This document shows positions 11,861 through 26,369 of a DNA stretch of 64,000 nt, piece after piece. The DNA lies in contig LDXR01000009.1 in assembly GCA_001443495.1 (NCBI GenBank), positions 1 through 64,000 of the forward strand, written 5' to 3'. Each line of letters begins with the position of its first letter. The stretch's first letter is position 1. A program made the position numbers and the translations under genes. The notes under the pieces were generated by a model, which searched no databases, was not told the origin of the DNA, and saw nothing but the letters and a program-made list of their open reading frames with translations. The stretch comes from a candidate division NC10 bacterium CSP1-5. GTDB taxonomy: Bacteria > Methylomirabilota > Methylomirabilia > Methylomirabilales > CSP1-5.

Positions 11861-12658
11861 ATGCGCATCGTTGTGTGTGTCAAACAGATCATCGACCCGG
11901 AGCTTCCCGCCAGTCAGTTCCGCATCGATGCGTCCTCCAATCGTCAGCGGCCGAATGGCCACCCCCTGGTCATCAGCCCGTATGATGAGAACGCCCTGGA
12001 GGTCGCCCTCAGGCTCAAGGAGAAGGCGGGCGGCACGGTGGCGGTGGTGAGTGCGGGGGAGCCGTCGGCGATCAGCGCCCTTCGCAAAGGACTGGCCATG
12101 GGGGCGGACGAGGCCGCCTTGATCAGCGACCCCGCCCTCGACGGATCGGATGCCTTCGGCCTCGCCGCCGCCCTGGCCCGCGGGATACAGAAACTCGGCA
12201 TCCCCGATCTGGTCCTGTGCGGCTGTGAGTCCGGGGACTGGGCCGACAGGACCGTGGGTCCCATCCTGGCCGAGGCGCTCAATATCCCATGCGTCTCCTT
12301 TGTGGCCCAGGTGGACGGAGAGGACGGCCGGCTGCGCATGCGGCGCGTCGTGGAGGAGGGCTACGAGGTTTGGGAGGGCGCGCCACCTCTGTTGCTGACC
12401 ATCCTCAGTCACGAGTCGAATATCCCCAGGTATCCGAAGGTCAAGGACATCATGACCGCGTCCCGGCGATCGATCCCGACGTGGTCAGCCGCCGACCTGG
12501 GCGTCGAGGCCGGTGATATTGGTAAGGCGGCCATCCGAACAGAGGTCCAACAGCTCACGCTTCCGAGTCGAGAGTCCCGCTGTGAGCTCATGGACGGCGA
12601 GCCGGCGCAGCAGGTCACGACCCTGATCACGAAACTCCGCGAACGGAAGGCCATCTAG
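11861..12658 (+). CDS. etfB: Electron transfer flavoprotein beta subunit
   Basis: The 265-residue protein starts at ATG 11861 (M-R-I-V-V-C-V-K-Q-I). An open frame extends far upstream on this strand but is only the shadow of the acyl-CoA dehydrogenase gene. EtfB features include 'N-P-Y/S-P-Y-D-E-N-A-L-E' (residues 42-52), 'M-G-A-D-E-A' and the AMP/FAD-site stretch 'G-C-E-S-G-D-W-A-D' with 'G-P-I-L-A-E-A-L'. EtfB pairs with EtfA, encoded two bases later, to carry electrons from acyl-CoA dehydrogenases to the membrane. Confidence 0.95.
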   Translation: MRIVVCVKQIIDPELPASQFRIDASSNRQRPNGHPLVISPYDENALEVALRLKEKAGGTVAVVSAGEPSAISALRKGLAMGADEAALISDPALDGSDAFGLAAALARGIQKLGIPDLVLCGCESGDWADRTVGPILAEALNIPCVSFVAQVDGEDGRLRMRRVVEEGYEVWEGAPPLLLTILSHESNIPRYPKVKDIMTASRRSIPTWSAADLGVEAGDIGKAAIRTEVQQLTLPSRESRCELMDGEPAQQVTTLITKLRERKAI

Positions 12659-12660
12659 CC

Positions 12661-13641
12661 ATGCCCGGTATCTTCGTCTTCGGCACGATCGAGAACGGGA
12701 TCCCGTCCCGCTCGACCCTGGAGCTCTTGACCGGCGCACAAAGACTCGCTGCGGGGCTTCAGGAAGGTGTCTCGGTCGGACTCCTGGGGCCAGGGGATGG
12801 GGCGTCGCTGTACCGTTACGGGGTCGAAGCCGTCTACCGGGCCAATGATCCGCTCCTGAAGGAATATCAGGCGGATCTCTACCTGCTGGCGCTCCAGCGG
12901 ATCGCCCAGGCCGCCGGCGCCAAGGTGCTCCTGTTGCCCGGAGACTCTCTGGGCCGGGACCTCGCCGCTCGCCTCGCCTTTCGCCTCAAGGCAGGCGTCG
13001 TCACGGACGTGATCGAGATCGACATCGAGGGCCCCGAAAAGATGCCGCGCTTCACACGCCCCGTGTACGGGGGCAAGGCGGCGGCGGTCATCGTTCCCAA
13101 ACGCTTTCCCGTCGTGGTCACCCTGAAGCCCCGGACCTTCGATCCCGCTGGACCCATGGGGCAGGGGAAAGGGAAGGAGGTCCCGGTCGAGATCTCATTG
13201 GATCCGGCCCAGGCCCGCACCCGAATGGCGGAGCGGGTCCAGGAGGAGACGACAGGGGTCAAACTCGAGGATGCACCGGCGGTGGTTTCCGGTGGCCGTG
13301 GACTCGGAGGGCCCGAGGGCTTTACCCTCCTGGTAGAGTTAGCCCGCGTCCTCAAGGGGGCGGTGGGGGCGTCCCGGGCTGCGACCGATGCCGGGTGGGT
13401 TCCCTCATCGATGCAGGTGGGCCAGACCGGCAAAACCGTCAGCCCGGATCTGTATATCGCCGTGGGCATCTCGGGTGCAACCCAACATGTCGCGGGGATC
13501 AGCGGCGCCAAGACCATTGTGGCCATCAACGCCGATCCGGAGGCCCCCATCTTCAAGGTGGCGCACCTGGGGATCGTGGGCGATTACAAGGCCATTCTCC
13601 CTCCCTTGATTGCGAAGTGCCGGGAGCTCATGGGGAGTTGA
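12661..13641 (+). CDS. etfA: Electron transfer flavoprotein alpha subunit
   Basis: The protein has 326 residues. The C-terminal FAD domain carries 'G-R-G-L-G' (near 217), '[11 protein letters not shown]' , 'Q-V-G-Q-T-G-K-T-V' and 'G-I-S-G-A-T-Q-H' with 'A-I-N-x-D-P-x-A-P-I-F'. These are the binding motifs of EtfA. With etfB (two-base gap) it forms the soluble heterodimer that accepts electrons from the two acyl-CoA dehydrogenases here. The next gene encodes the membrane acceptor. Confidence 0.95.
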
Positions 13642-13644
13642 AGC

Positions 13645-15618
13645 ATGGAGCGAATCCCTTCGCGGGAGATCTACTGGAACATCCCGGAGCACCTGCTGCT
13701 CTACGTTCTGCTCCTGCCTTTCCTCGCTGTCTTCCTGTATGGGTGCTATCGACGCTTTGGTGCTCTCCTGCTGGGCAGGAAGGGGGTACGGCTTGGTCAG
13801 CCGAAGGAGCGCCTGAAGGCCTTCGTGTCCCAGGCCGTCCTGCAAGGGCGAATCGCCACGGAGCGGTATTCAGGGGTCATGCATCTCAGCCTTTCCTGGG
13901 GATTTCTCGTCCTCTTCATCGCCACCACCCTCGTTGCTTTTCAAGACTACTTCGGCCTTCCCGTCCTCCAGGGTCGCTTCTACCTTTATTTCATGTCACT
14001 CACCGTGGACCTCTTCGGCGTCGCGGCGCTCTTGGGGACGTTGATGGCCGTCCTCCGGCGCTTCCTCCGTCCTCCGGCCCGCCTGGTGGAGCCACGGCAC
14101 GCCGACGGTTTCGGCTGGCTCCTCCTCCTCTTCCTCGCTGTCCTGGTGACCGGATTCCTCGTCGAGGGGCTCCGGATCATGGCGACGGCCGACCCCTGGG
14201 GGCCGTGGTCACCCGGAGGGTGGGTGACCGCGCTCCTCTTCCGGGGCGTGGGTGTCGAGTATGCACGGGCCTTTCACCAGGTCCTCTGGTGGGTGCATGC
14301 CGCCCTGTCGTTCGGCTTCATTGCAGCGATCCCCTATACCGGCGTGCTACATCTCCTCACCGCGCCTGCCAACATCTTCCTGCGGAACCTTGAGCCCTCG
14401 GGCATCGCAAGCCCCTTGGCGGTCGATGCAGAGAAGCTCGGGGCCTCTTCGATTCGGGATTTCTCATGGAAAGCGCTTTTGGATCTATACGCCTGCACCG
14501 AGTGCGGCCGATGCCAGGCTGCCTGCCCCGCCTGGACCACGGGCAAGCCCCTCACCCCCAAAGGCATCATCCTCGATCTCCGGGACCACCTCACCAAGGT
14601 GCACCGGGGGGAGGAGACGCGGCGCATGGTGGGCGAGGTGATCTCCGAGGATGCGCTGTGGGCCTGTACGACGTGCGGGGCGTGTCATGAGGCCTGTCCG
14701 GTCCTGATCGAGCCGATCCCCAAGATCCTGGAGATGCGCCGGCACCTGGTGATGGAAGAGGCGACCTTTCCGGATCAGATGCAGGAGACCCTCCGGAGCC
14801 TGGAGACGCGCGGGCATCCCTACAAGGGGGTGAGCGCGGGACGGACCGACTGGACCAAAGGGTTGCGGATCCCCGAGGCGGCAAAGCTCAAGGAGGTCGA
14901 GCTCCTCTTCTGGGTGGGCTGCGCGGGCGCCTTTGATGAGCGAGGGCAGCAGGTCACCCGGGCGATGGCGCAGGTGCTCGAGGCGGCGGAAGTGGAGTTT
15001 GCGATCTTGGGCAATGAAGAGCGGTGCACCGGAGATCCGGCCCGGCGGATCGGGAACGAGTATCTCTTTCAACTCTTCGCCCAGGAGAATATCGCGACGC
15101 TCAATCGCTACCGGGTGAAGAAGATCGTGACCACCTGCCCGCACTGCTTCAATACGATGAAGAACGAGTATGGCCAGTTCGGCGGGGAGTTCGACGTGGT
15201 CCACCACAGCCAGTTCATCGCCCACCTGCTGCGGGAGGGGCACCTGGTCCTGCAAAAGCGATTCAGCGGGACGGTGGCCTTTCACGATCCGTGCTACCTT
15301 GGCCGCCACAACGGCATCTACGATGACCCGCGGTCGGTGATCGGTCACCTCGGGGGGCTCAAGCAGGTGGAGATGCCCCGATGTCGCGAGAAGGGGTTCT
15401 GCTGCGGCGCCGGCGGCGGACTGATGTGGATCGAGGAGCGGATCGGCAAGCGGGTGAATCTCGAGCGAACGGACGAGCTCCTGCAGACCGGGGCGGCGGT
15501 GGTGGCCACGGCCTGCCCGTTCTGCCTGACGATGATGACCGACGGCATTACCGTGCGCGGGAAGAGCCTCGCGGTCAAGGCGTTAGACCTGGCGGAACTG
15601 GTAGTCCGCGCGCTCTGA
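13645..15618 (+). CDS. Membrane FeS oxidoreductase, ETF:(methyl)menaquinone oxidoreductase type
   Basis: The 657-residue protein begins three bases after etfA. The first 250 residues hold about five to six membrane spans of the NarI-like cytochrome b type. Two 4Fe-4S motifs follow, '[12 protein letters not shown]' near 285 and '[12 protein letters not shown]' near 340. The C-terminal half has two CCG domains; the last shows 'F-C-C-G-A-G-G-G'. This layout is that of the DUF224/HdrD-like partner of ETF, described as EMO in Geobacter and syntrophs. It should move electrons from ETF to a quinone in the inner membrane. Confidence 0.88.
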
Positions 15619-15663
15619 CGAGTGAAGAATTCAGGACTGAGGGATGAGGGGTTGGAGGTAGGC

Positions 15664-16581
15664 ATGCGGATTGTGTCGCTCCTGCCCAGTGCGACAGAGA
15701 TCGTCTATCTGCTGGGGCTGGGGGATCACCTCACCGGAGTGAGTCACGAGTGTGATTACCCCAAGGCGGCGCTCGGCAAGCGCAAGATCATCACCCCCGC
15801 CTTCGAGAGCTCCGGGCTCAGCAGTCGGGAGATCGACAGCAGTGTCCGGGCCTTCCTGGGGCGCGGGGAGGGGATCTATCGGATCGATCTTGAGGCCTTG
15901 AAGGCGGCCGACCCCGACCTGATCGTGACCCAGGAGCTGTGCGATGTCTGTGCCGCCCCCTACCAGGACGTGCTCGAGGCGGTGACACACCTTTCGCGAA
16001 AACCAGAGATCCTTTCCCTGAACCCGCAGCGTCTCGGGGATGTGCTCCAGGATGTCGAGCGGGTCGGGGAGGCGACGGGACGGCTCCGCGAGGCAGCGCA
16101 GGCTGTCGCCTCGCTCACCGAACGGATCGATCGCGTCGAGAAGCGGGCGGCCAACGCCAAGACCCGGCCACCCGTAGCGTGTCTGGAGTGGCTGGAGCCG
16201 ATCATGGCCTCGGGCCACTGGGTCCCCGAGATGGTGGCCCTGGCTGGCGGCAGCGAACCACTCGGAAAGGCAGGAGAGCCGTCGGAACGGGTGGCGTGGG
16301 AGCGGGTCCTCTCTTGTGCACCCGAGATCCTGATCCTCATGCCCTGCGGTTTTTCCGTAGATCGGACTCTGGACGAGATCCACCTTTTGACCGATCGTCC
16401 GGGCTGGGAAGGCCTGCCGGCGGTGAGGCGGGGCAAGGTCTTTGCCGTGAACGGTCACGCCTACTTCAGCCGATCGGGACCACGCCTGGTAGACGGAACC
16501 GAGATTTTGGCCCATCTCGTGCATCCGGAACTCTTCCCAGGACCCGTGCCTGAAGGAGCCGCTAGGAGGCTAGTAGGCTAG
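15664..16581 (+). CDS. Cobalamin-binding (BtuF-like) protein without signal peptide
   Basis: The start is ATG 15664, with GGAGG at 15654-15658, giving 305 residues. The fold is that of periplasmic B12/iron-siderophore binding proteins: 'I-V-S-L-L-P-S-A-T-E' at the start, 'T-Q-E-L-C-D-V-C' near 85 and 'W-L-E-P-I-M-A-S-G-H-W' near 175. No signal peptide or lipobox is visible, so it may act in the cytoplasm. Its place just before a B12-dependent mutase suggests a role in cofactor handling; this is inference. The final six residues are encoded by the start of a repeat cluster. Confidence 0.75.
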   Translation: MRIVSLLPSATEIVYLLGLGDHLTGVSHECDYPKAALGKRKIITPAFESSGLSSREIDSSVRAFLGRGEGIYRIDLEALKAADPDLIVTQELCDVCAAPYQDVLEAVTHLSRKPEILSLNPQRLGDVLQDVERVGEATGRLREAAQAVASLTERIDRVEKRAANAKTRPPVACLEWLEPIMASGHWVPEMVALAGGSEPLGKAGEPSERVAWERVLSCAPEILILMPCGFSVDRTLDEIHLLTDRPGWEGLPAVRRGKVFAVNGHAYFSRSGPRLVDGTEILAHLVHPELFPGPVPEGAARRLVG

Positions 16582-16705
16582 GACGCTGGAACGCTACCAT
16601 GCTGGGAAGTTAGTAGGCCAGGTGCGAGCCTTCTAGCCTTCAAGCATTCTCGCCTCCTAGCTTTCTAGCATACTAGCGTCCCAGCATACTAGCATTCGAG
16701 GAACG
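16562..16705. repeat. Cluster of degenerate CTAG-rich repeats
   Basis: Units such as GGCTAG, GACGCT and CTAGCATACTAGC recur in both orientations; the left half (16562-16620) is an imperfect inverted copy of the right half (16640-16695). It begins inside the last codons of the B12-binding gene and ends just before the mutase gene. A similar string lies at the end of leuS (45901-45935). Confidence 0.75.
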
Positions 16706-16709
16706 ACCG

Positions 16710-18410
16710 ATGACCGATGACCGGAAAGAGATAGGGAAGATCAAAGAAGCGGCAAAGGCATGGGAGGCTGAGGTCCTGGACCCCGCGCTCGAGAGGTCGC
16801 CCGAGCGGGCCCGGGAGTTCAGGACTGTCTCGGGGCATCCCATCCGCAGGCTCTATACGCCCGCCGATCTCGCCGACTTCGACTACACCCGGGACCTCGG
16901 CTTTCCGGGCCTCTCTCCCTTTACGCGGGGAGTCTACCCGAGCATGTACCGGGGCAGGCTCTGGACCATGCGGATGTTCGCCGGCCACGGGACTCCTGAA
17001 GAGACGAATCAGCGGTTCAGGTATCTCCTGGCGCAGGGGCAGACCGGTCTGTCGGTCGCCTTTGACCTGCCCACCTTGATGGGGTACGACTCGGACCATC
17101 CGATGTCCCGAGGGGAGGTGGGGAAGTGCGGGGTGGCCGTTGACTCACTGGCGGATATGGAGATCCTCTTCGACGGGATTCCGCTGCAGGACGTCACCAC
17201 CTCGATGACCATCAACTCCCCGGCCGCGGTCCTCTGGGCCATGTACCTCGCGGTCTGCGAGAAACAGGGGGTGCCCTACGACCGCATCGGCGGCACCCTC
17301 CAGAATGACATCCTCAAGGAGTTCATCGCGCAGAAGGAGTACGTCTTTCCCCTCGAGCCTTCGATGCGCCTCGTGGTGGATACGATCCTCTTTGGGGCCC
17401 GGCATCTGCCCCGGTGGCATCCGGTCAGCATCAGCGGCTATCACATCCGAGAGGCGGGGTCCACCGCAATCCAGGAGCTGGCCTTTACCGTGGCCGACGG
17501 CATGGCCTATGTCGAGGCTACCATGAAGGCCGGGCTCAACGTCGATGCCTTCGCCCCTCGCCTCTCCTTCTTCTTTAATGTCCACAACGATTTCTTTGAA
17601 GAGATCGCCAAGTTTCGCGCCGCCAGGCGCGTGTGGGCAAAACTCATGCGAGAGCGGTACGGGGCAAGAGATCCGCGATCCTGGCTGCTCCGGACCCACG
17701 CCCAGACGGCGGGATGTGCGCTCACCGCCCAGCAACCGTACAACAACGTCGTTCGGGTGAGCATTCAGGCCCTGGCGGCAATCCTGGGCGGGGTGCAGTC
17801 GCTCCACACCAACGCCCTGGATGAAACGCTCGCCCTTCCCACCCAGGACGCGGCGACGATCGCGCTCCGGACCCAGCAGATCATCGCCCACGAGACCGGG
17901 GTGACCCACACCATCGACCCCGTGGGAGGATCGTACTTCGTCGAAAGCCTCACGCGGGAGGTCGAGGAGGAGGTCTGGAACTATCTCCACAAGATCGATG
18001 ACCTGGGGGGCATGGTGCGGGCGGTCGAGCAAGGCTTCCCCCAGAAGGAGATTGTCGATGCCTCCTACCGGTACCAGCAGACGGTCGAGGCGGGGGAAGA
18101 GGTCGTCGTCGGCGTGAACCGGTTCGTCGCCGAGGCAGAGGAGCCGGTCTCCCTGCTTCGCATCGACCCGGAGCAGATTGCGAAGCAGCAGGTGGAGAGG
18201 ATTCATCGCCTGAAGGGGGGCCGGGACAACGGGGGGGTCCAGAAGGCTCTGGACGGCCTCCGAAGGGCGGCGGAGGGGGAAGATCCCTGGGGTCAGGACC
18301 TCCTCATGCCTCGGATCCTCGAGGCGGTGCGGGCGTATGCAACCCTGGGAGAGATCATGGGGGTCTTTCGAGAGGCGTGGGGGGAGTACGTCGAACCCGC
18401 CATCCTCTGA
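16710..18410 (+). CDS. icmA: B12-dependent acyl-CoA mutase large subunit, isobutyryl-CoA mutase type
   Basis: The 566-residue protein is the TIM-barrel subunit of a B12 acyl-CoA mutase; the length equals that recalled for IcmA. The catalytic His is H245 in S-I-S-G-Y-H. The two residues that decide substrate in this family are F90 ('R-M-F-A-G') and Q208 ('I-A-Q-K-E'). In methylmalonyl-CoA mutase the matching residues are Tyr89 and Arg207, the Arg binding the substrate carboxylate; in isobutyryl-CoA mutase they are Phe80 and Gln198. I therefore prefer isobutyryl-CoA/butyryl-CoA mutase, although automatic pipelines would call it methylmalonyl-CoA mutase. The B12-binding domain is a separate subunit encoded after 123 bases. 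Confidence 0.8.
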
Positions 18411-18530: not shown

Positions 18531-18545
18531 TAGGTGAATGACGCG

Positions 18546-18953
18546 ATGAGTGAAGAACGGAAGATCCGTGTCTTGGTGGCGAAACCGGGGCTCGACGGCC
18601 ATGACCGGGGGGCCAAGGTGATTGCCCGGGCGTTCCGGGACGCGGGGTTCGAAGTGATTTACACCGGCCTTCGGCAGACGCCGGAGATGATCGTCAGCGC
18701 CGCGATCCAGGAGGACGTGGATGCCATCGGCCTCTCCTGCCTCTCGGGAGCCCACATGTATCTCTTCCCCCGGATCGTGGAGCTGCTCCGTGAGCGCGGC
18801 GCGGACGATGTCGTCGTCTTTGGAGGCGGGACGATTCCCGACGAGGACATTGCCACCCTCAAGGAGGCAGGGATCGCCGAGATCTTTACTCCGGGAACTT
18901 CGACGTCGGTGGCGATCGATTACGTTCGGACGCACATCCGCCAGCGGGCGTGA
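18546..18953 (+). CDS. icmB: B12-binding small subunit of the acyl-CoA mutase
   Basis: From ATG 18546 the protein has 135 residues; an in-frame GTG at 18534 adds four. It is a free-standing B12-binding domain with the base-off His motif D-G-H-D-R-G, 'S-C-L-S-G-A-H' and '[11 protein letters not shown]'. It should bind adenosylcobalamin and pair with the large subunit upstream. Its size fits the small subunit of isobutyryl-CoA mutase. The next gene starts 29 bases later. Confidence 0.85.
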
Positions 18954-18982: not shown

Positions 18983-20296
18983 ATGAGACCCGTCTATGCG
19001 GTCTCGGGCGGTGTGAGCAAGTTCGCCAGGGCCCGCCCCGAGCTCGACTTCCGCGGGATGGTCAAGGAAGCCTACGATTATGCCCTCACGGATCTCCACC
19101 TGACCCCCCAGCGCGCGCGGGAGATCGTCGACGGGACGATCTGCTCGTACTTCTCCGATCACTTCACCCGACAACTCAAGGCCGGCAGCATGGTGCAGGA
19201 TTATCTCGGCCTGTGCCCCAAGCCTGGCAAGCGCATCGAAGGAGGGGGCGCGACGGGAGGCCTGGCCGTTCAGTCGGGCTGGGAGGCGGTGGCGTCGGGC
19301 CGGTTCGATATCTGCGTGGTGTACGGCTTCGAGACCATGTCGCGCGTCAATACCTGGAAGGGCAACGAATTCATCGCGCTGGCCTCCGACACGAATTTCG
19401 ATTATCCCGTCGGCGGCTTTTACTCCGGATACTACGCCATGATGGTGGTCCGTCATATGAAAGAGTTCGGCACCACCGTGGAGCAGATGGCGCTGGTGTC
19501 GGTGAAGAACCACCGGAACGCCCTCCATAACCCGTATGCCCAGAAGCGGAGGCAGATCACGATCGAGGACGTGCGCCGGGCCGAGATGGTGGCCTGGCCG
19601 CTGACGATGCTTGACATTTGCGTCATGTCGGACGGGGCGGCGGCGCTCATTCTCTGTAGCGAAGACGGGCTCAATACCTTGCACAAGGCTACGGGACACA
19701 CCCCGCTCCCTGCCAAGATTACCGGGGTGGGCGGCGGCCTCGACGCCATGCGGATGGCGGACCGACCTCACGGGGAGGTGATTCTCCTGCCTCATGAAAA
19801 GCCGGAAGACTACCGGGGGCTGAACTACCCCGGGGTCCACTCCTTCCGGGCCGGGCGCACGGCCGCCAAGGCCGCCTATCAGATGGCCGGAATCACGAAC
19901 CCCCTTGAAGAGCTGGACTTCATCGAGCTGCACGACGCGTACACCTCCTCGGAGATCCAGACCTACGAGGACATGGGGCTCTGCAGGTACGGTGAGGGTG
20001 GAAAGTTCGTCGAGAGCGGTACGCCCTTCATGCCGGCGGTCGATTACGGGTACCATTTTCCGGAACAGGGCCGGATCCCGATCAATCCCTCGGGTGGACT
20101 CATCGCCTGCGGCCATCCGGTGGGGGCGACCGGAATCATGCAGGGGGTGTTTGCCCTGTGGCAGCTTCAGGGGAGCATCCACACACACTTCGGGAGCGAT
20201 GTCCTCCAGGTGAAGAATGCGAGGCGTGGAGCGATTCACAGCCACGCGGGCACGGGGACCTACGTGGTGATCTCGATCTTGGAAAAGGGCGAGTGA
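18983..20296 (+). CDS. Thiolase-fold protein lacking the nucleophilic cysteine (Ltp/SCP-x type)
   Basis: ATG 18983 follows GGAAGTGG and gives 437 residues. The fold is that of non-decarboxylating thiolases: 'Y-G-F-E-T-M-S' near 120, 'L-H-D-A-Y-T' near 320, and 'N-P-S-G-G-L-I-A-C-G-H-P-V-G-A-T-G' near 370 with the active-site His. Where true thiolases have the nucleophilic Cys in an N-x-x-C-x-x-G motif, this protein has I-E-G-G-G-A-T-G (Gly89). Such Cys-less homologues with a DUF35 partner can act as aldolases (the steroid enzyme Ltp2) rather than thiolases. The partner gene follows after 34 bases. Confidence 0.8.
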   Translation: MRPVYAVSGGVSKFARARPELDFRGMVKEAYDYALTDLHLTPQRAREIVDGTICSYFSDHFTRQLKAGSMVQDYLGLCPKPGKRIEGGGATGGLAVQSGWEAVASGRFDICVVYGFETMSRVNTWKGNEFIALASDTNFDYPVGGFYSGYYAMMVVRHMKEFGTTVEQMALVSVKNHRNALHNPYAQKRRQITIEDVRRAEMVAWPLTMLDICVMSDGAAALILCSEDGLNTLHKATGHTPLPAKITGVGGGLDAMRMADRPHGEVILLPHEKPEDYRGLNYPGVHSFRAGRTAAKAAYQMAGITNPLEELDFIELHDAYTSSEIQTYEDMGLCRYGEGGKFVESGTPFMPAVDYGYHFPEQGRIPINPSGGLIACGHPVGATGIMQGVFALWQLQGSIHTHFGSDVLQVKNARRGAIHSHAGTGTYVVISILEKGE

Positions 20297-20330
20297 TGCT
20301 CCACAGCGTGAGGGGCGAGGGCTCAAGGCC

Positions 20331-20858
20331 GTGAGCGAGAGCCGTGTGCCAGAAGAAGAAGAGGGGACGGTCCTCTTCAAGGTACCGCTTCCGAAGGACC
20401 TGGGGGCGCTCAGGGAGCTGGCGCCCCTGATCATCAAGCACCACTATGAGATCGATTACATTCACAGCTACGCGCAAGACAGCCCCTTCTTTGCCGGGCT
20501 GGCCAACAAGCGACTGTTGGGCACCCGGTGCGGCAATTGCAACTACACCTACGCGACACCACGAGCGCATTGTATGGAATGCGGGGGGCCGTGCGACTGG
20601 GTGGACCTTCCCCAGGAGGGGCAGATCCACACGTTTACCGTGTGCTACTACGGCAGTGAAGCGTTCCTGAAAGAGACTCCGTTCATTCTCGCCCTCATTG
20701 AGTTCCCCGGTGTGGATACCCTCTTCTTGACTCGGGTGGTCGGGCTCGACCCGCAGGCCTCTTCGCTCGACTGGATCGGCATGGCCGTCAAGGCCAAATT
20801 CCGCCGCCTCTCCACGTTCCGTCCCACCGACGTCTATTTCGTCCCCATCGGAACCTGA
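20331..20858 (+). CDS. DUF35 zinc-ribbon/OB-fold partner of the thiolase-like protein
   Basis: A GTG start gives 175 residues. A zinc ribbon (C-G-N-C near 65-68, C-M-E-C near 80-83) is followed by an OB-fold, the DUF35 architecture. DUF35 proteins bind thiolase-fold enzymes and help shape the acyl-CoA site, as for archaeal HMG-CoA synthase, BbsA and the Ltp aldolases. Direct adjacency to a Cys-less thiolase homologue supports a two-subunit enzyme here. Confidence 0.85.
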   Translation: MSESRVPEEEEGTVLFKVPLPKDLGALRELAPLIIKHHYEIDYIHSYAQDSPFFAGLANKRLLGTRCGNCNYTYATPRAHCMECGGPCDWVDLPQEGQIHTFTVCYYGSEAFLKETPFILALIEFPGVDTLFLTRVVGLDPQASSLDWIGMAVKAKFRRLSTFRPTDVYFVPIGT

Positions 20859-20990: not shown

Positions 20991-21026
20991 TGAATGAGGA
21001 TTTCGCTGGGCCGCGGAGCTTTCGGT

Positions 21027-22178
21027 ATGGACTTCACGCTGAACGAGACGCAACGGGCAATTCAAGGGGTGGTCAGGGACTTTGCGCGCCGGGAGATCAT
21101 TCCGAAGGCGGCCGGGTACGATCAGCGGGAGGAGTTTCCTTGGGAGATTGTCCAAGGGGCGGCGAGCCTCGGCCTTCTCGGGATCCTGGTCCCGGAGGGA
21201 TACGGTGGGGCCGGGATGGACTACGTGAGCTACGTCGCCATCCTCGAAGAGCTCGGTCGGGCCGACGGCTCTGTCGCCCTCACCGTCGAAGCGCATAATT
21301 CGCTAGCCGTGAACCACATCCTCCTCTTCGGAACCGAGGAGCAGAGGCGGCGGTATCTCCCCGCATTGGCGAGGGGAGAGATGCTTTCGGCCTGGGCCCT
21401 CACAGAGCCGAGTTCGGGAAGCGACGCGGCCGCGATGCGCACCACGGCCGTCCGTCAGGACGACGCCTATGTGCTCAGCGGGACCAAGAACTTTATCACC
21501 TCCGGAAGCATCGCCGGGGTGTATGTGGTTCTGGCCCTGAGCGACCCGACCCGCGGTTCCCATGGCATCTCTGCCTTTATCTTGGAAAAGGGGGCGCCCG
21601 GATTCTCTGTGGGTCGGCGAGAGAAGAAGCTGGGGGTCCGCGCCAGCGACACCGCCCAGCTCATCCTGGACCATGTGCGCCTTCCGGCGGAGAACCTCCT
21701 GGGAGAGATGCACCATGGGTTCCTCGACGCCCTCCAGGTCCTCGACGGTGGGCGGATCGGCATCGCCGCCCTGGCCGTCGGGTTAGCCAGGGCGGCCCTG
21801 GAGGAGAGCATCGCATACAGCAAGCAACGGGTGCAGTTCGGCGAGCCGATCAGCGCGTTTCAAGCCATCCAATTTAAGCTCGCAGACATGGCGACCGCCA
21901 TCGACGCCGCGCGTCTCTTGACCTACCGGGCGGCCGTGCTGGCAGATCAGGGAAAGCCCTTCACCAAAGAGGCGTCGATGGCTAAGGTCTATAGTGCCGA
22001 AGCGGCCGTGGCGGCGGCGATCCAGGCGATCCAGATCCACGGGGGGTACGGGTACACGGTCGAGTATCCGGTCGAGCGCTATCTCCGGGATGCCAAGCTC
22101 TGCGAAATCGGCGAGGGCACCTCGGAGATCCAGCGCCTCATCATCGCGCGAGAGATCGTGGGCCGGGAGTACGTGTGA
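21027..22178 (+). CDS. Acyl-CoA dehydrogenase, second copy
   Basis: I chose ATG 21027 (M-D-F-T-L-N), preceded by CGGAG, over an open frame from 20994. The 383-residue flavoprotein shows '[12 protein letters not shown]', '[10 protein letters not shown]', 'I-H-G-G-Y-G-Y' and 'G-E-G-T-S-E-I-Q' with the catalytic Glu. It parallels the first dehydrogenase at 10698 and should use the same ETF. Two copies in one cluster suggest two different acyl-CoA substrates, for instance a branched and a straight-chain one; this is inference. Confidence 0.92.
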
Positions 22179-22267: not shown

Positions 22268-23206
22268 GTGGAGATCATTGAAAGGATCCGGCAGCGGGAT
22301 GTCCGGGCGATCGCCCGCCTGATGTCCCTCGTCGAGAATAATGCCCCCGAGGCTACCGCCGCGCTGAAGGAGCTGTACTCGATCACCGGACAGGCATTCA
22401 TCGTGGGGATCACCGGTCCGCCGGGATCGGGAAAGAGTACCCTGACGGATCAACTCACGAAGGAGTTTCGCCGGGGTGGGAAGACCGTCGGGATCATTGC
22501 CGTGGATCCCACCAGCCCCTTTACCGGGGGGGCGATTCTGGCCGATCGCATCCGGATGCAGCAGCACAGTCTCGACGCAGGGGTCTTCATCAGGAGCATG
22601 GCCACGCGAGGGCACCTCGGGGGGTTGGCCAAGGCCACGGGCGATGTGGTGAACGTGCTGGATGCGGCGGGGAAAGAAGTGATCCTCGTGGAGACCGTCG
22701 GGGTGGGGCAGGACGAGGTCGAGGTGGTCAAGACGGCCGATACGTGCGTCGTCGTCACCGTCCCCGGTCTGGGGGACGATATTCAGGCGATCAAGGCCGG
22801 GATCCTGGAGATCGCCGATATTTTTGTGGTCAACAAGGCGGACCGCGAGGGTGCGGACAAGACGGTGACGGAGATCCAGACCATGATGGGACTCGGCCCG
22901 GGGCGTTCGGACTGGGTCCCGCCCATCCTGAAGACGGTCGCCACCCAGGGGCAGGGCATCGCCGAGTTGGCGGAAGGGATTCTCGCTCATCGGGCCCATC
23001 TGGACCGACGGGGCCTGCGGCAGATGCGCCAGCGCGAGCGAAGTCGTGCCCTCTTTCTCGAGCTGCTGCAGGAGCAGGGGACCCGGCGCCTGCTGGAGCG
23101 GGCGAGCGCCAACGGAACCCTCGAGCAGACGATCGAGCGCATTGCCACGCGAGAGACGGACCCGTATTCCGCGGTCGAAGAGCTGCTGGCCAAGGCGGGC
23201 CTTTGA
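22268..23206 (+). CDS. meaB: MeaB/ArgK-family G-protein chaperone of the B12 mutase
   Basis: The 312-residue GTPase has a P-loop 'G-P-P-G-S-G-K-S-T' near 46, 'D-P-T-S-P-F-T-G-G-A' near 75, 'E-T-V-G-V-G-Q' near 140 and the 'N-K-A-D' base-recognition motif near 194. MeaB proteins gate loading of adenosylcobalamin into acyl-CoA mutases and protect them. Its presence in the same cluster fits the mutase subunits at 16710 and 18546. The start is GTG 22268. Confidence 0.92.
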   Translation: MEIIERIRQRDVRAIARLMSLVENNAPEATAALKELYSITGQAFIVGITGPPGSGKSTLTDQLTKEFRRGGKTVGIIAVDPTSPFTGGAILADRIRMQQHSLDAGVFIRSMATRGHLGGLAKATGDVVNVLDAAGKEVILVETVGVGQDEVEVVKTADTCVVVTVPGLGDDIQAIKAGILEIADIFVVNKADREGADKTVTEIQTMMGLGPGRSDWVPPILKTVATQGQGIAELAEGILAHRAHLDRRGLRQMRQRERSRALFLELLQEQGTRRLLERASANGTLEQTIERIATRETDPYSAVEELLAKAGL

Positions 23207-23280: not shown

Positions 23281-24249
23281 ATGAAGACCGTCGCCTCAGG
23301 GGAGAGTGCGTACCACTGGGTCCACCCCGACGACTTTCGGGAGTGGGTCCGCTTGCACAAGAGTCGGGAGGCGACCGACAAGCTCATGACGGAACACGAG
23401 GCCGTCTCCCGCTTTGTGGCGGACGGGGACTACATCGCCTACGATTTTTCTTCGCTGACCCGTGGTCCCCAAGCCTTGGTCAGAGAAATCATCCGACAAC
23501 GCAGGCGGCACCTCTGGATCTGCGCCGAGTTTACCCTCCACGAGTCCGCATTACTGGTCGGCGCCGGGTGTGCCGATCGGATCGACGTGGGATTTTTGGG
23601 ATACGGCGATTACATCGGGCGGGCGGTCGTGGAAGGGAGGGTGCGGGTCTTTGAATGGACGAATGGGGCCTTGGCCGCGCGGATGCTCGCCGGGGCCAGA
23701 GGGCTTCCCTTCATGCCGATGCGCAACCTTGTGGGAACGGATACCTTCGTCCGATCCGGAGCCAGGGCGGCGGCGGATCCCTTCAGCGGCGATCCCGTCT
23801 GCCTGGTCCCCGCGCTCCATCCGGATGTCTTCCTCGTGCATGTCCACCAGGCGGACGTCTCCGGGAATGCCCGCATCTTCGGGACGAACCTCTTTGCGCT
23901 CGAGGCGGCCATGGCCTCGAAAAAGGTCATCGTCTCTGCCGAGGAGATCGTCGATCCGCTCGAGTTTCGGAAGGAGCCGGCAAAGACGACGATCCCCCAC
24001 TTCCTGGTCAGCGCCGTCGTGCACCTTCCGTTCGGGGCATATCCAGGCGGAGTGCCCGGCAAATACGAGCTGGACCTCGAGCAGATCCAGCAATTGAACG
24101 CGATCGAGACCGAGGAACAGGTGCTGGCGTATCTCGAGGCCTTCGTGTACAGCGTGCGGTCCCACGCCGAACTGCTGGAGCAGAAGGTGGGGTGGGGACG
24201 GCTGGCGGACATGATCCGACGGGGGTCCATCAGAGAAGGATACGCGTAG
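23281..24249 (+). CDS. CoA-transferase subunit A (glutaconate CoA-transferase-like)
   Basis: ATG 23281 gives 322 residues; the longer open frame upstream is a shadow of meaB. The protein resembles the A subunit of class I CoA-transferases (GctA), including 'F-S-S-L-T-R-G-P-Q-A-L-V' near 55 and 'G-G-V-P-G-K-Y-E-L-D' near 263. These enzymes move CoA between acids. Distant relatives such as IpdA are hydrolases in steroid breakdown, so the reaction cannot be fixed from sequence alone. Subunit B follows. Confidence 0.82.
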   Translation: MKTVASGESAYHWVHPDDFREWVRLHKSREATDKLMTEHEAVSRFVADGDYIAYDFSSLTRGPQALVREIIRQRRRHLWICAEFTLHESALLVGAGCADRIDVGFLGYGDYIGRAVVEGRVRVFEWTNGALAARMLAGARGLPFMPMRNLVGTDTFVRSGARAAADPFSGDPVCLVPALHPDVFLVHVHQADVSGNARIFGTNLFALEAAMASKKVIVSAEEIVDPLEFRKEPAKTTIPHFLVSAVVHLPFGAYPGGVPGKYELDLEQIQQLNAIETEEQVLAYLEAFVYSVRSHAELLEQKVGWGRLADMIRRGSIREGYA

Positions 24250-24268: not shown

Positions 24269-25066
24269 GTGCCCGACACCATGGCCCGATTCACCGAGAC
24301 CGAGTGCATGATCTGCCTCGCCGCCCGCCTGCTCGAAGACCGGAAGACGGTCTTCGTCGGGTGGGGCATTCCGCAGGTCGTGGCCATGCTGGCCGAGAGG
24401 CTGTACACCCCGAACCTCACCCAGGTCTTCGAGTTTGGCGCGATCGGTCCGCGTCCCCTGACCCCCTTTGTCCGCGGGACCATGGGGGGGCCGTCCAATG
24501 TCTATCGATCGCTGCAGTGGACCACCATGAACTGGGCCTTTGCCTATGCCGCCACCGGATATCTGGACTACGGAATGATCGGGGCGCTGCAGGTGGACCC
24601 GTACGGCAACGTGAATTCGACGCTGCTGGGGGGCAGTTACGACCGACCGAAACGGCGGTTCCCCGGCAGCGGGGGAGGAAACGAAGTCGCCTCGCTCTGC
24701 TGGGAGACGATCGTCGTGTTGAAGCACGAGCCGCGTCGCTTCGTCGAGCGACTCGACTTCATGACCTCGCCAGGCTACCTGACCGGGCCTGGGGCGCGGG
24801 AAGCCGCCGGCCTCCCCCGGGGGACCGGCCCCTACCGCGTCGTCACATCGCAAGCCCTCTTTGGCTTTGACGACGAGACGAAGCACATGCGGCTCCTCGG
24901 CGTGCTGCGGGGACTGTCGGCGGATCAGGTGACTCGCGGGATGGGCTTTGCACCCGTGGTGGCGGAAAAGGTCGAAGTGCTCGAGCCGCCGACGCGGGAG
25001 GAGTTAGCCGTCCTGCGCGAGGCAATCGATCCGTCGCGCATGATCATCGGGCGAGAGGCCGGATGA
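24269..25066 (+). CDS. CoA-transferase subunit B
   Basis: From GTG 24269 the protein has 265 residues; ATG 24281 is an alternative. It resembles GctB-type subunits. The Glu in 'V-F-E-F-G-A-I-G-P' occupies the place of the catalytic glutamate that forms the acyl-CoA intermediate. The A and B subunits together could activate a free acid such as isobutyrate, or recycle CoA from an end product; the substrate is unknown. Its stop overlaps the next start (ATGA, 25063-25066). Confidence 0.82.
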   Translation: MPDTMARFTETECMICLAARLLEDRKTVFVGWGIPQVVAMLAERLYTPNLTQVFEFGAIGPRPLTPFVRGTMGGPSNVYRSLQWTTMNWAFAYAATGYLDYGMIGALQVDPYGNVNSTLLGGSYDRPKRRFPGSGGGNEVASLCWETIVVLKHEPRRFVERLDFMTSPGYLTGPGAREAAGLPRGTGPYRVVTSQALFGFDDETKHMRLLGVLRGLSADQVTRGMGFAPVVAEKVEVLEPPTREELAVLREAIDPSRMIIGREAG

Positions 25067-26318: not shown

Positions 26319-26339
26319 CCCGGGGGTCGAAAAGACACA

Positions 26340-26369
26340 GGGGGGGCATAGCCCCCCCCTTCTTTTTTT
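26340..26369 (+). terminator. Rho-independent terminator of the zinc-ribbon gene
   Basis: Seven G (26340-26346) pair with C residues at 26352-26358 around a short CATAG loop, followed by a T-rich tail to 26369. Confidence 0.92.

Follow-up and report, generated by a model that had tools for sequence, protein, structure and literature searches.

In the genome of the candidate division NC10 bacterium CSP1-5 (Methylomirabilota; GenBank assembly GCA_001443495.1), a stretch of 64,000 nucleotides (contig LDXR01000009.1, positions 1 to 64,000; here called the window) encodes two adjacent proteins, a thiolase homologue that has lost the nucleophilic cysteine and a DUF35 protein, which, judging from their sequences, are very unlikely to carry out thiolysis. 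We tentatively suggest that this pair is a cysteine-independent retro-aldolase of branched-chain acyl coenzyme A (acyl-CoA) breakdown. That its substrate is 3-hydroxyisovaleryl-CoA, derived from leucine, is a more doubtful proposal. More doubtful still is the broadest version of the hypothesis, in which the pair would be a histidine-based, Cys-less aldolase and the key enzyme of a pathway that degrades leucine and isovalerate without carboxylation and occurs widely in NC10, Nitrospirota, anammox bacteria, Geobacteraceae, and Chloroflexi.

Both genes lie on the forward strand, 34 bases apart. The first (18983 to 20296) begins with ATG and encodes 437 amino acids; the second (20331 to 20858) begins with GTG and encodes a stand-alone protein of 175 amino acids that is not fused to a hydratase. 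The thiolase homologue, which is present in a single copy in the genome, resembles NCBIfam NF004982/PRK06365, a family named “thiolase domain-containing protein” that carries no assigned function. The match is full length and scores 649 bits, against a curated cutoff of 695, and some members of the family described here reach an E value of 1.2e-223. The DUF35 protein matches PF12172 (zf-ChsH2) and PF01796 (OB_ChsH2_C) and is a putative partner subunit of the ChsH2/BbsA type, with a zinc ribbon (C67xxC70...C81xxC84) and an OB fold.

The ping-pong reaction of thiolases requires a nucleophilic cysteine. Where thiolases have the CxS loop, the window protein has G-G-G89-A-T-G-G (19241 to 19261), with GGC as codon 89 (19247 to 19249). 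HMMER aligned the segment R-I-E-G-G-G89-A-T-G with R-V-E-A-A-C-A-S-G of the archaeal acetoacetyl-CoA thiolase (6esq), K-I-E-A-A-C-A-S-G of the Pyrococcus furiosus thiolase (7yvy), and N-V-Q-S-A-C-S-A-G of BbsB (7pxp). By alignment, cysteines are also gone from two further sites, at which thiolases carry the acid/base cysteine (in the CxG loop or, in the SCP2 type, in HDCF) and which the preliminary description had not mentioned: H317-D-A319-Y320 (19931 to 19942) occupies the position of HDCF in SCP2 thiolase, YDHF in Ltp2, and YDCY in Sal, and H419-S420-H421-A-G-T-G (20237 to 20257) occupies that of the CxG loop. Both catalytic histidines, H317 and H378, are retained, the latter in the loop C376-G-H378-P-V-G-A-T-G (20108 to 20134). 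It is because all three cysteine positions are lost while both histidines are kept that we consider thiolysis so improbable. The preliminary description of this stretch had reported glycine at the catalytic position, an intact C-terminal GHPxGATG motif, a neighboring DUF35 protein, and a loss of thiolase chemistry; its coordinates were exact, and all of these points hold.

A scan of bacterial and archaeal genomes returned 306 relatives. The best 80 (68 to 97% identical), from which the taxonomic spread was taken, belong to Methylomirabilota (NC10), Nitrospirota, Planctomycetota including Scalindua, Geobacteraceae and other Thermodesulfobacteriota, Chloroflexota, Calditrichota, Melainabacteria, Betaproteobacteria, and others. 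All 98 aligned homologues have Gly89, along with G88, T91, G92, and G93; H317 and H378 are each conserved in 97 of the 98, H419 in 96 to 97, and H421 in every one, and the residue directly before GHP, C376, is a cysteine in 93. A further conserved motif, S-Y-F-S-D-H-F-T-R-Q-L (residues 55 to 65; 19145 to 19177, forward strand), is specific to the family. The invariance of Gly89 across many phyla marks it as a family trait and not as decay, a sequencing error, or a one-off. A relative at only 45% identity (L017) is also Cys-less. The DUF35 partner adjoins 83 of 99 homologues, and 70 of 84 partners retain the full set of four zinc-ribbon cysteines; in Chloroflexota partners (L077:3216-3767 and L082:10366-10911), zinc-ribbon cysteines are replaced by Asp, Thr, or Ser in pairs that are otherwise conserved. 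In a genome of the same class as the window (G083), a thiolase-like gene (L180:6946-8160) stands beside a DUF35-sized gene and adjoins a DUF547 gene. It lacks the nucleophilic cysteine as well as the histidines of GHP and HDxY (GAP and ADPY, respectively) and appears to be a more degenerate relative.

An AlphaFold2 model of the thiolase homologue (27 sequences; predicted local distance difference test score, 87; predicted template modeling score, 0.91; residues 123 to 144 uncertain) has the thiolase fold, in agreement with the preliminary assignment, and a fold search matched it to 6et9 with template modeling scores of 0.79/0.88. The best PDB matches were the archaeal acetoacetyl-CoA thiolase, SCP2 thiolase, the P. 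furiosus thiolase, and benzoylsuccinyl-CoA thiolase. Sal (9myr) and Ltp2 (6ok1), both DUF35-dependent aldolases, also matched, at ranks 47 to 49 and about 21% identity. Sequence scores from phmmer were 161 bits for the archaeal thiolase, 137 for BbsB, 61 for Sal of Comamonas testosteroni (CtSal), and 52 for Ltp2.

Retro-aldol cleavage of 3-hydroxyacyl-CoA has been shown for Ltp2 and Sal, and the preliminary description had compared the pair to Ltp2 and suggested an acyl-CoA aldol step hidden behind a thiolase label. The idea of such a step is supported; the steroid setting is not, since the cluster is one of short branched-chain acyl-CoA metabolism, and neither is close kinship with Ltp2. Sal-Shy(DUF35) of C. 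testosteroni (9MYR) shares with the window pair the thiolase fold, the DUF35 partner, glycine at the nucleophile position, and an acyl-CoA context, and Ltp2-ChsH2(DUF35) (6OK1) shares the Cys-less thiolase fold and the DUF35 partner. In a 2025 study of CtSal, a biochemically proven bile-acid aldolase, the authors concluded that with glycine in place of the thiolase nucleophile thiolysis is impossible, and the catalytic residues were given as Tyr302 and Cys304 of the YDCY motif in CtSal and as Tyr294 of YDHF and Tyr344 in Ltp2 (PMC12329534); the equivalence of HDAY with these motifs is taken from that paper. Where Sal has Tyr302-Asp-Cys304-Tyr, the window protein has His317-Asp-Ala319-Tyr320, and His317 likewise replaces Tyr294 of Ltp2. 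Identity to Sal in the structural alignment is 21%. Sal belongs to a steroid pathway and its DUF35 is fused to a hydratase; Ltp2 is encoded in a cholesterol side-chain cluster, and ChsH2 doubles as a hydratase subunit. The window pair differs in these respects, and we saw no steroid genes or MaoC-type hydratase context among its neighbors. Membership in the Ltp2/Sal family was rejected because the catalytic tyrosine is not kept and the sequence is nearer to the archaeal thiolase and BbsB. The absent nucleophile and the DUF35 partner give the window protein a frame comparable to that of Ltp2 and Sal, and its catalytic residues place it outside that family.

The archaeal acetoacetyl-CoA thiolase, which has a DUF35 partner too, retains the nucleophilic cysteine where the window protein has Gly89, and no HMG-CoA (3-hydroxy-3-methylglutaryl-CoA) synthase gene adjoins the window pair. 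BbsAB (7PXP) likewise combines a thiolase with a separate DUF35 subunit, its HDAF resembles HDAY, and it operates in an anaerobic acyl-CoA pathway with an acyl-CoA dehydrogenase. The preliminary description had named BbsAB beside Ltp2 for comparison, and BbsB proved the nearer of the two, but BbsAB is a proven thiolase with the cysteine that the window protein lacks, the scores against the NCBIfam equivalogs fall below the cutoffs (BbsB, 154 bits versus 750; BbsA, 20 versus 250), and no benzylsuccinate genes were seen around the pair.

We postulate that the two proteins would form a heteromeric thiolase-fold enzyme that is unable to form the acyl-cysteine intermediate. What the fold could still do is bind a CoA thioester and stabilize an enolate, and a 3-hydroxyacyl-CoA may then be cleaved by a retro-aldol reaction, with H317 and H378 responsible for proton transfer and for the enolate of the thioester and with the DUF35 subunit completing the acyl-CoA site. 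The pair would act after a 2-oxoacid dehydrogenase and an acyl-CoA dehydrogenase on branched-chain acyl-CoAs. Leucine breakdown without carboxylation would give 3-hydroxyisovaleryl-CoA; its cleavage to acetone and acetyl-CoA could substitute for methylcrotonyl-CoA carboxylase (MCC) and HMG-CoA lyase. We propose this route because operons with isovaleryl-CoA dehydrogenase and the absence of the carboxylase and the lyase both fit it.

The operons in question are those of two betaproteobacteria (L026 and L030), which read E1a-E1b-E2-isovaleryl-CoA dehydrogenase-thiolase-pair, where E1 and E2 are subunits of a branched-chain-type 2-oxoacid dehydrogenase. The L026 dehydrogenase scores 643 bits against solved isovaleryl-CoA dehydrogenases, and that of L030 is its orthologue (75% identity). 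Among 50 pair-bearing genomes from phyla other than NC10, only these two encode an orthologue of the enzyme, both times inside the pair operon.

For the missing enzymes, we compared 18 pair-bearing NC10 genomes with 77 other NC10 genomes and surveyed the same 50 genomes of other phyla, all of them pair bearing. HMG-CoA lyase above the curated cutoff was found in none of the 18 pair-bearing NC10 genomes and in 52 of the 77 others (Fisher's P = 5e-8, not corrected for relatedness); within the order, the counts were 0 of 18 and 6 of 17 (P = 0.008, likewise uncorrected). In other phyla, the lyase occurred in 2 of the 50 genomes, and an MCC-like carboxyl transferase occurred in about 5 of them by score class, not by tree. 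Nineteen of the 50, including most Nitrospirota and Scalindua, had no carboxyl transferase of the MCC class at an E value of ≤1e-60, and the only carboxylase of the MCC/propionyl-CoA carboxylase (PCC) class in the window genome is PCC. A second carboxylase in two genomes (G006 and G007) was rejected as MCC, since it is paralogous to PCC and shares 58% identity with that of the window genome, and an apparent class of Geobacteraceae carboxylases, encoded beside a mutase, proved to be of the PCC/methylmalonyl type. Counts of E1 of the branched-chain 2-oxoacid dehydrogenase did not discriminate within the order. With MCC and HMG-CoA lyase missing, the usual leucine route is unavailable in most pair-bearing genomes.

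Across genomes, the recurrent neighbors of the pair are mutase subunits, MeaB, E1/E2, a canonical acetyl-CoA acetyltransferase, 3-hydroxybutyryl-CoA dehydrogenase, enoyl-CoA hydratase, a metallo-beta-lactamase-fold protein, acetoacetyl-CoA synthetase (AacS; 930 bits), SCOT A/B, which like AacS activates acetoacetate, and methylcitrate-cycle genes. Isobutyryl-CoA-mutase-type genes adjoin the pair in about half of the loci; Geobacteraceae, Chloroflexi, and LCP-89 have the pair without a mutase. In Nitrospirota, the pair is found with E1/E2, thiolase, 3-hydroxybutyryl-CoA dehydrogenase, mutase, and methylcitrate-cycle genes. The locus of L017, from another NC10 genome, reads E1a-E1b-E2-thiolase-3HCDH-pair-IcmF-acyl-CoA dehydrogenase, which indicates that the link to branched-chain acyl-CoAs persists with a differently built mutase. 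In NC10, Thermodesulfobacteriota, Melainabacteria, and Scalindua, the acyl-CoA dehydrogenases encoded with the pair fall into a single supported clade. In Nitrospirota and LCP-89, the gene for the metallo-beta-lactamase-fold protein (YtnP-like; L049:7405-8244 and orthologues), possibly a thioesterase, lies between those for the mutase subunits or next to that for the dehydrogenase. In Scalindua (L075:11085-17441) and another planctomycete (L081), pair and mutase abut genes of lysine fermentation (a keto-cleavage enzyme, diaminohexanoate dehydrogenase, and lysine 2,3- and 5,6-aminomutases), which are unexpected in an anammox genome.

In the window, the pair belongs to what appears, from its gene content, to be an isobutyryl-CoA-mutase-type operon. 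Upstream, three genes on the forward strand encode electron acceptors for acyl-CoA dehydrogenases: electron transfer flavoprotein (ETF) beta (11861 to 12658), ETF alpha (12661 to 13641), and an Fe-S/membrane oxidoreductase (13645 to 15618). They are followed by a BtuF-like cobalamin-binding protein (15622 to 16581), which probably supplies B12, and, still on the forward strand, by the large (16710 to 18410) and small, B12-binding (18534 to 18953) subunits of a B12-dependent acyl-CoA mutase. An 8-base unit (AGCATTCT-like) is repeated imperfectly in tandem directly upstream of the mutase gene (16627 to 16697). The large subunit carries F90, A117, and Q208 (F in 26 of 29 aligned sequences, A and Q in all 29), F90 and Q208 being at the positions of Tyr89 and Arg207 of methylmalonyl-CoA mutase. 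We take Phe90/Gln208/Ala117 to be the isobutyryl-CoA mutase combination, Tyr/Arg that of methylmalonyl-CoA mutase, and Ile and Asp that of 2-hydroxyisobutyryl-CoA mutase; the last is not favored here, as Ile90/Asp117 are absent. Including this one, the genome encodes three large subunits of the methylmalonyl-CoA mutase type (C9:16710, C27:14390, and C10:28654), and the C27 copy is near the PCC genes. Downstream of the pair, all on the forward strand, are an acyl-CoA dehydrogenase (20994 to 22178, with a probable start at 21027) that belongs to the pair-associated clade seen in four phyla, a MeaB-type GTPase that is a mutase chaperone (22268 to 23206), and glutaconate CoA-transferase-type subunits A (23281 to 24249) and B (24269 to 25066). 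In subunit B, the Glu of FEFG aligns with the ESG of 1poi_B, whose Glu is presumably the catalytic one. An IpdAB-like role was rejected for these subunits, which are nearer to glutaconate CoA-transferase and have Glu at the catalytic position. The operon continues with a homocysteine methyltransferase gene and a strong terminator-like hairpin (26339 to 26361). Isobutyryl-CoA mutase operons for valine and isobutyrate (IcmAB plus MeaB, or IcmF) share the mutase, MeaB, acyl-CoA dehydrogenase, thiolase, and 3-hydroxybutyryl-CoA dehydrogenase neighbors. The published account of an isobutyrate degrader's cluster (PMC5017805) names no Cys-less thiolase/DUF35 pair.

Three NC10 genomes of the same genus (G008, G010, and G013) keep the ETF-FeS-BtuF-mutase-MeaB-CoA transferase series intact and lack the pair and the acyl-CoA dehydrogenase jointly, which argues for a separable module that is not part of the mutase machinery and weakens the idea of the pair as a mutase accessory. 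The module is not absolutely tight, as two genomes (G022 and G028) retain the dehydrogenase without the pair. These relatives also bear on the possibility that the pair is a non-catalytic scaffold or channeling subunit joining mutase or beta-oxidation partners. DUF35 proteins bridge archaeal thiolase and HMG-CoA synthase, three cysteine positions are lost, and the canonical thiolase and the mutase are constant neighbors, all of which would suit a scaffold. We judge it quite improbable, as the mutase is evidently independent of the pair, and active-site loops, both histidines, and family-specific motifs that are invariant over many phyla would be unusual in a scaffold. A somewhat better but still unlikely alternative is other non-covalent acyl-CoA chemistry (decarboxylation, hydrolysis, or a Claisen-type transfer) or a different nucleophile, such as the widely conserved C376. 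SLP of Trypanosoma, which is also Cys-less, is a weak malonyl-CoA decarboxylase (PMC12329534), but none of the cluster's genes implies a need for decarboxylation, and C376 is replaced by Ser in Scalindua (L075) and by Ala in L017 and hence is dispensable in some members.

A retro-aldolase acting on another substrate is also unlikely. The pair might cleave 3-hydroxyisobutyryl-CoA to formaldehyde and propionyl-CoA (valine) or 2-methyl-3-hydroxybutyryl-CoA to acetaldehyde and propionyl-CoA (isoleucine). Ltp2 releases propionyl-CoA, the methylcitrate-cycle genes adjoining the Nitrospirota pair consume it, and the frequent mutase neighbors would fit. Yet the mutase is already an exit for isobutyryl-CoA, lineages with the pair and no mutase exist, and the two betaproteobacterial operons, with their isovaleryl-CoA dehydrogenase, indicate leucine. 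A leucine role could also take the form of a thiolase-fold HMG-CoA lyase that cleaves HMG-CoA to acetoacetate and acetyl-CoA in place of the TIM-barrel lyase, in keeping with the lack of the classical lyase in nearly all pair-bearing genomes and the recurrence of AacS and SCOT A/B near the pair. This reading, with MCC upstream, was favored at first. It has been largely rejected and now seems remote, because leucine-derived HMG-CoA needs MCC, which is absent from most pair-bearing genomes, including that of the window.

Several points weigh against a retro-aldolase that makes acetone from leucine. The catalytic tyrosine of Ltp2 and Sal is replaced by histidine, so that their mechanism is not transferable residue by residue. 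A true isovaleryl-CoA dehydrogenase is missing in 48 of the 50 genomes, whose accompanying acyl-CoA dehydrogenases are of the short-chain type. A clear acetone carboxylase was found in just 1 of the 50, and this enzyme was rejected as the next step, which leaves excretion or some other route as the fate of acetone, and an acetone product does not explain the recurrent AacS and SCOT. The genomes surveyed are mostly incomplete metagenome-assembled genomes, the HMG-CoA lyase contrast in NC10 is partly confounded by phylogeny, and genomes of the order that have no pair lack MCC too.

In the literature searched, which lacked most subscription journals, we found no paper on the pair or on a leucine-to-acetone route. 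Cys-less thiolase-DUF35 aldolases are known; what would be new is a histidine-based, nonsteroid family of branched-chain acyl-CoA metabolism that spans many phyla. If our proposal is correct, a large family annotated as “thiolase” uses aldol chemistry to form or cleave carbon-carbon bonds in many phyla, including those of nitrite oxidizers, anammox bacteria, and anaerobic methane oxidizers. The thiolase superfamily would then have given rise to aldolases on more than one occasion, with histidine here and tyrosine in Ltp2 and Sal. The proposal would also explain how isovaleryl-CoA could be degraded where MCC and HMG-CoA lyase are missing, and it would predict that acetone is released biologically.

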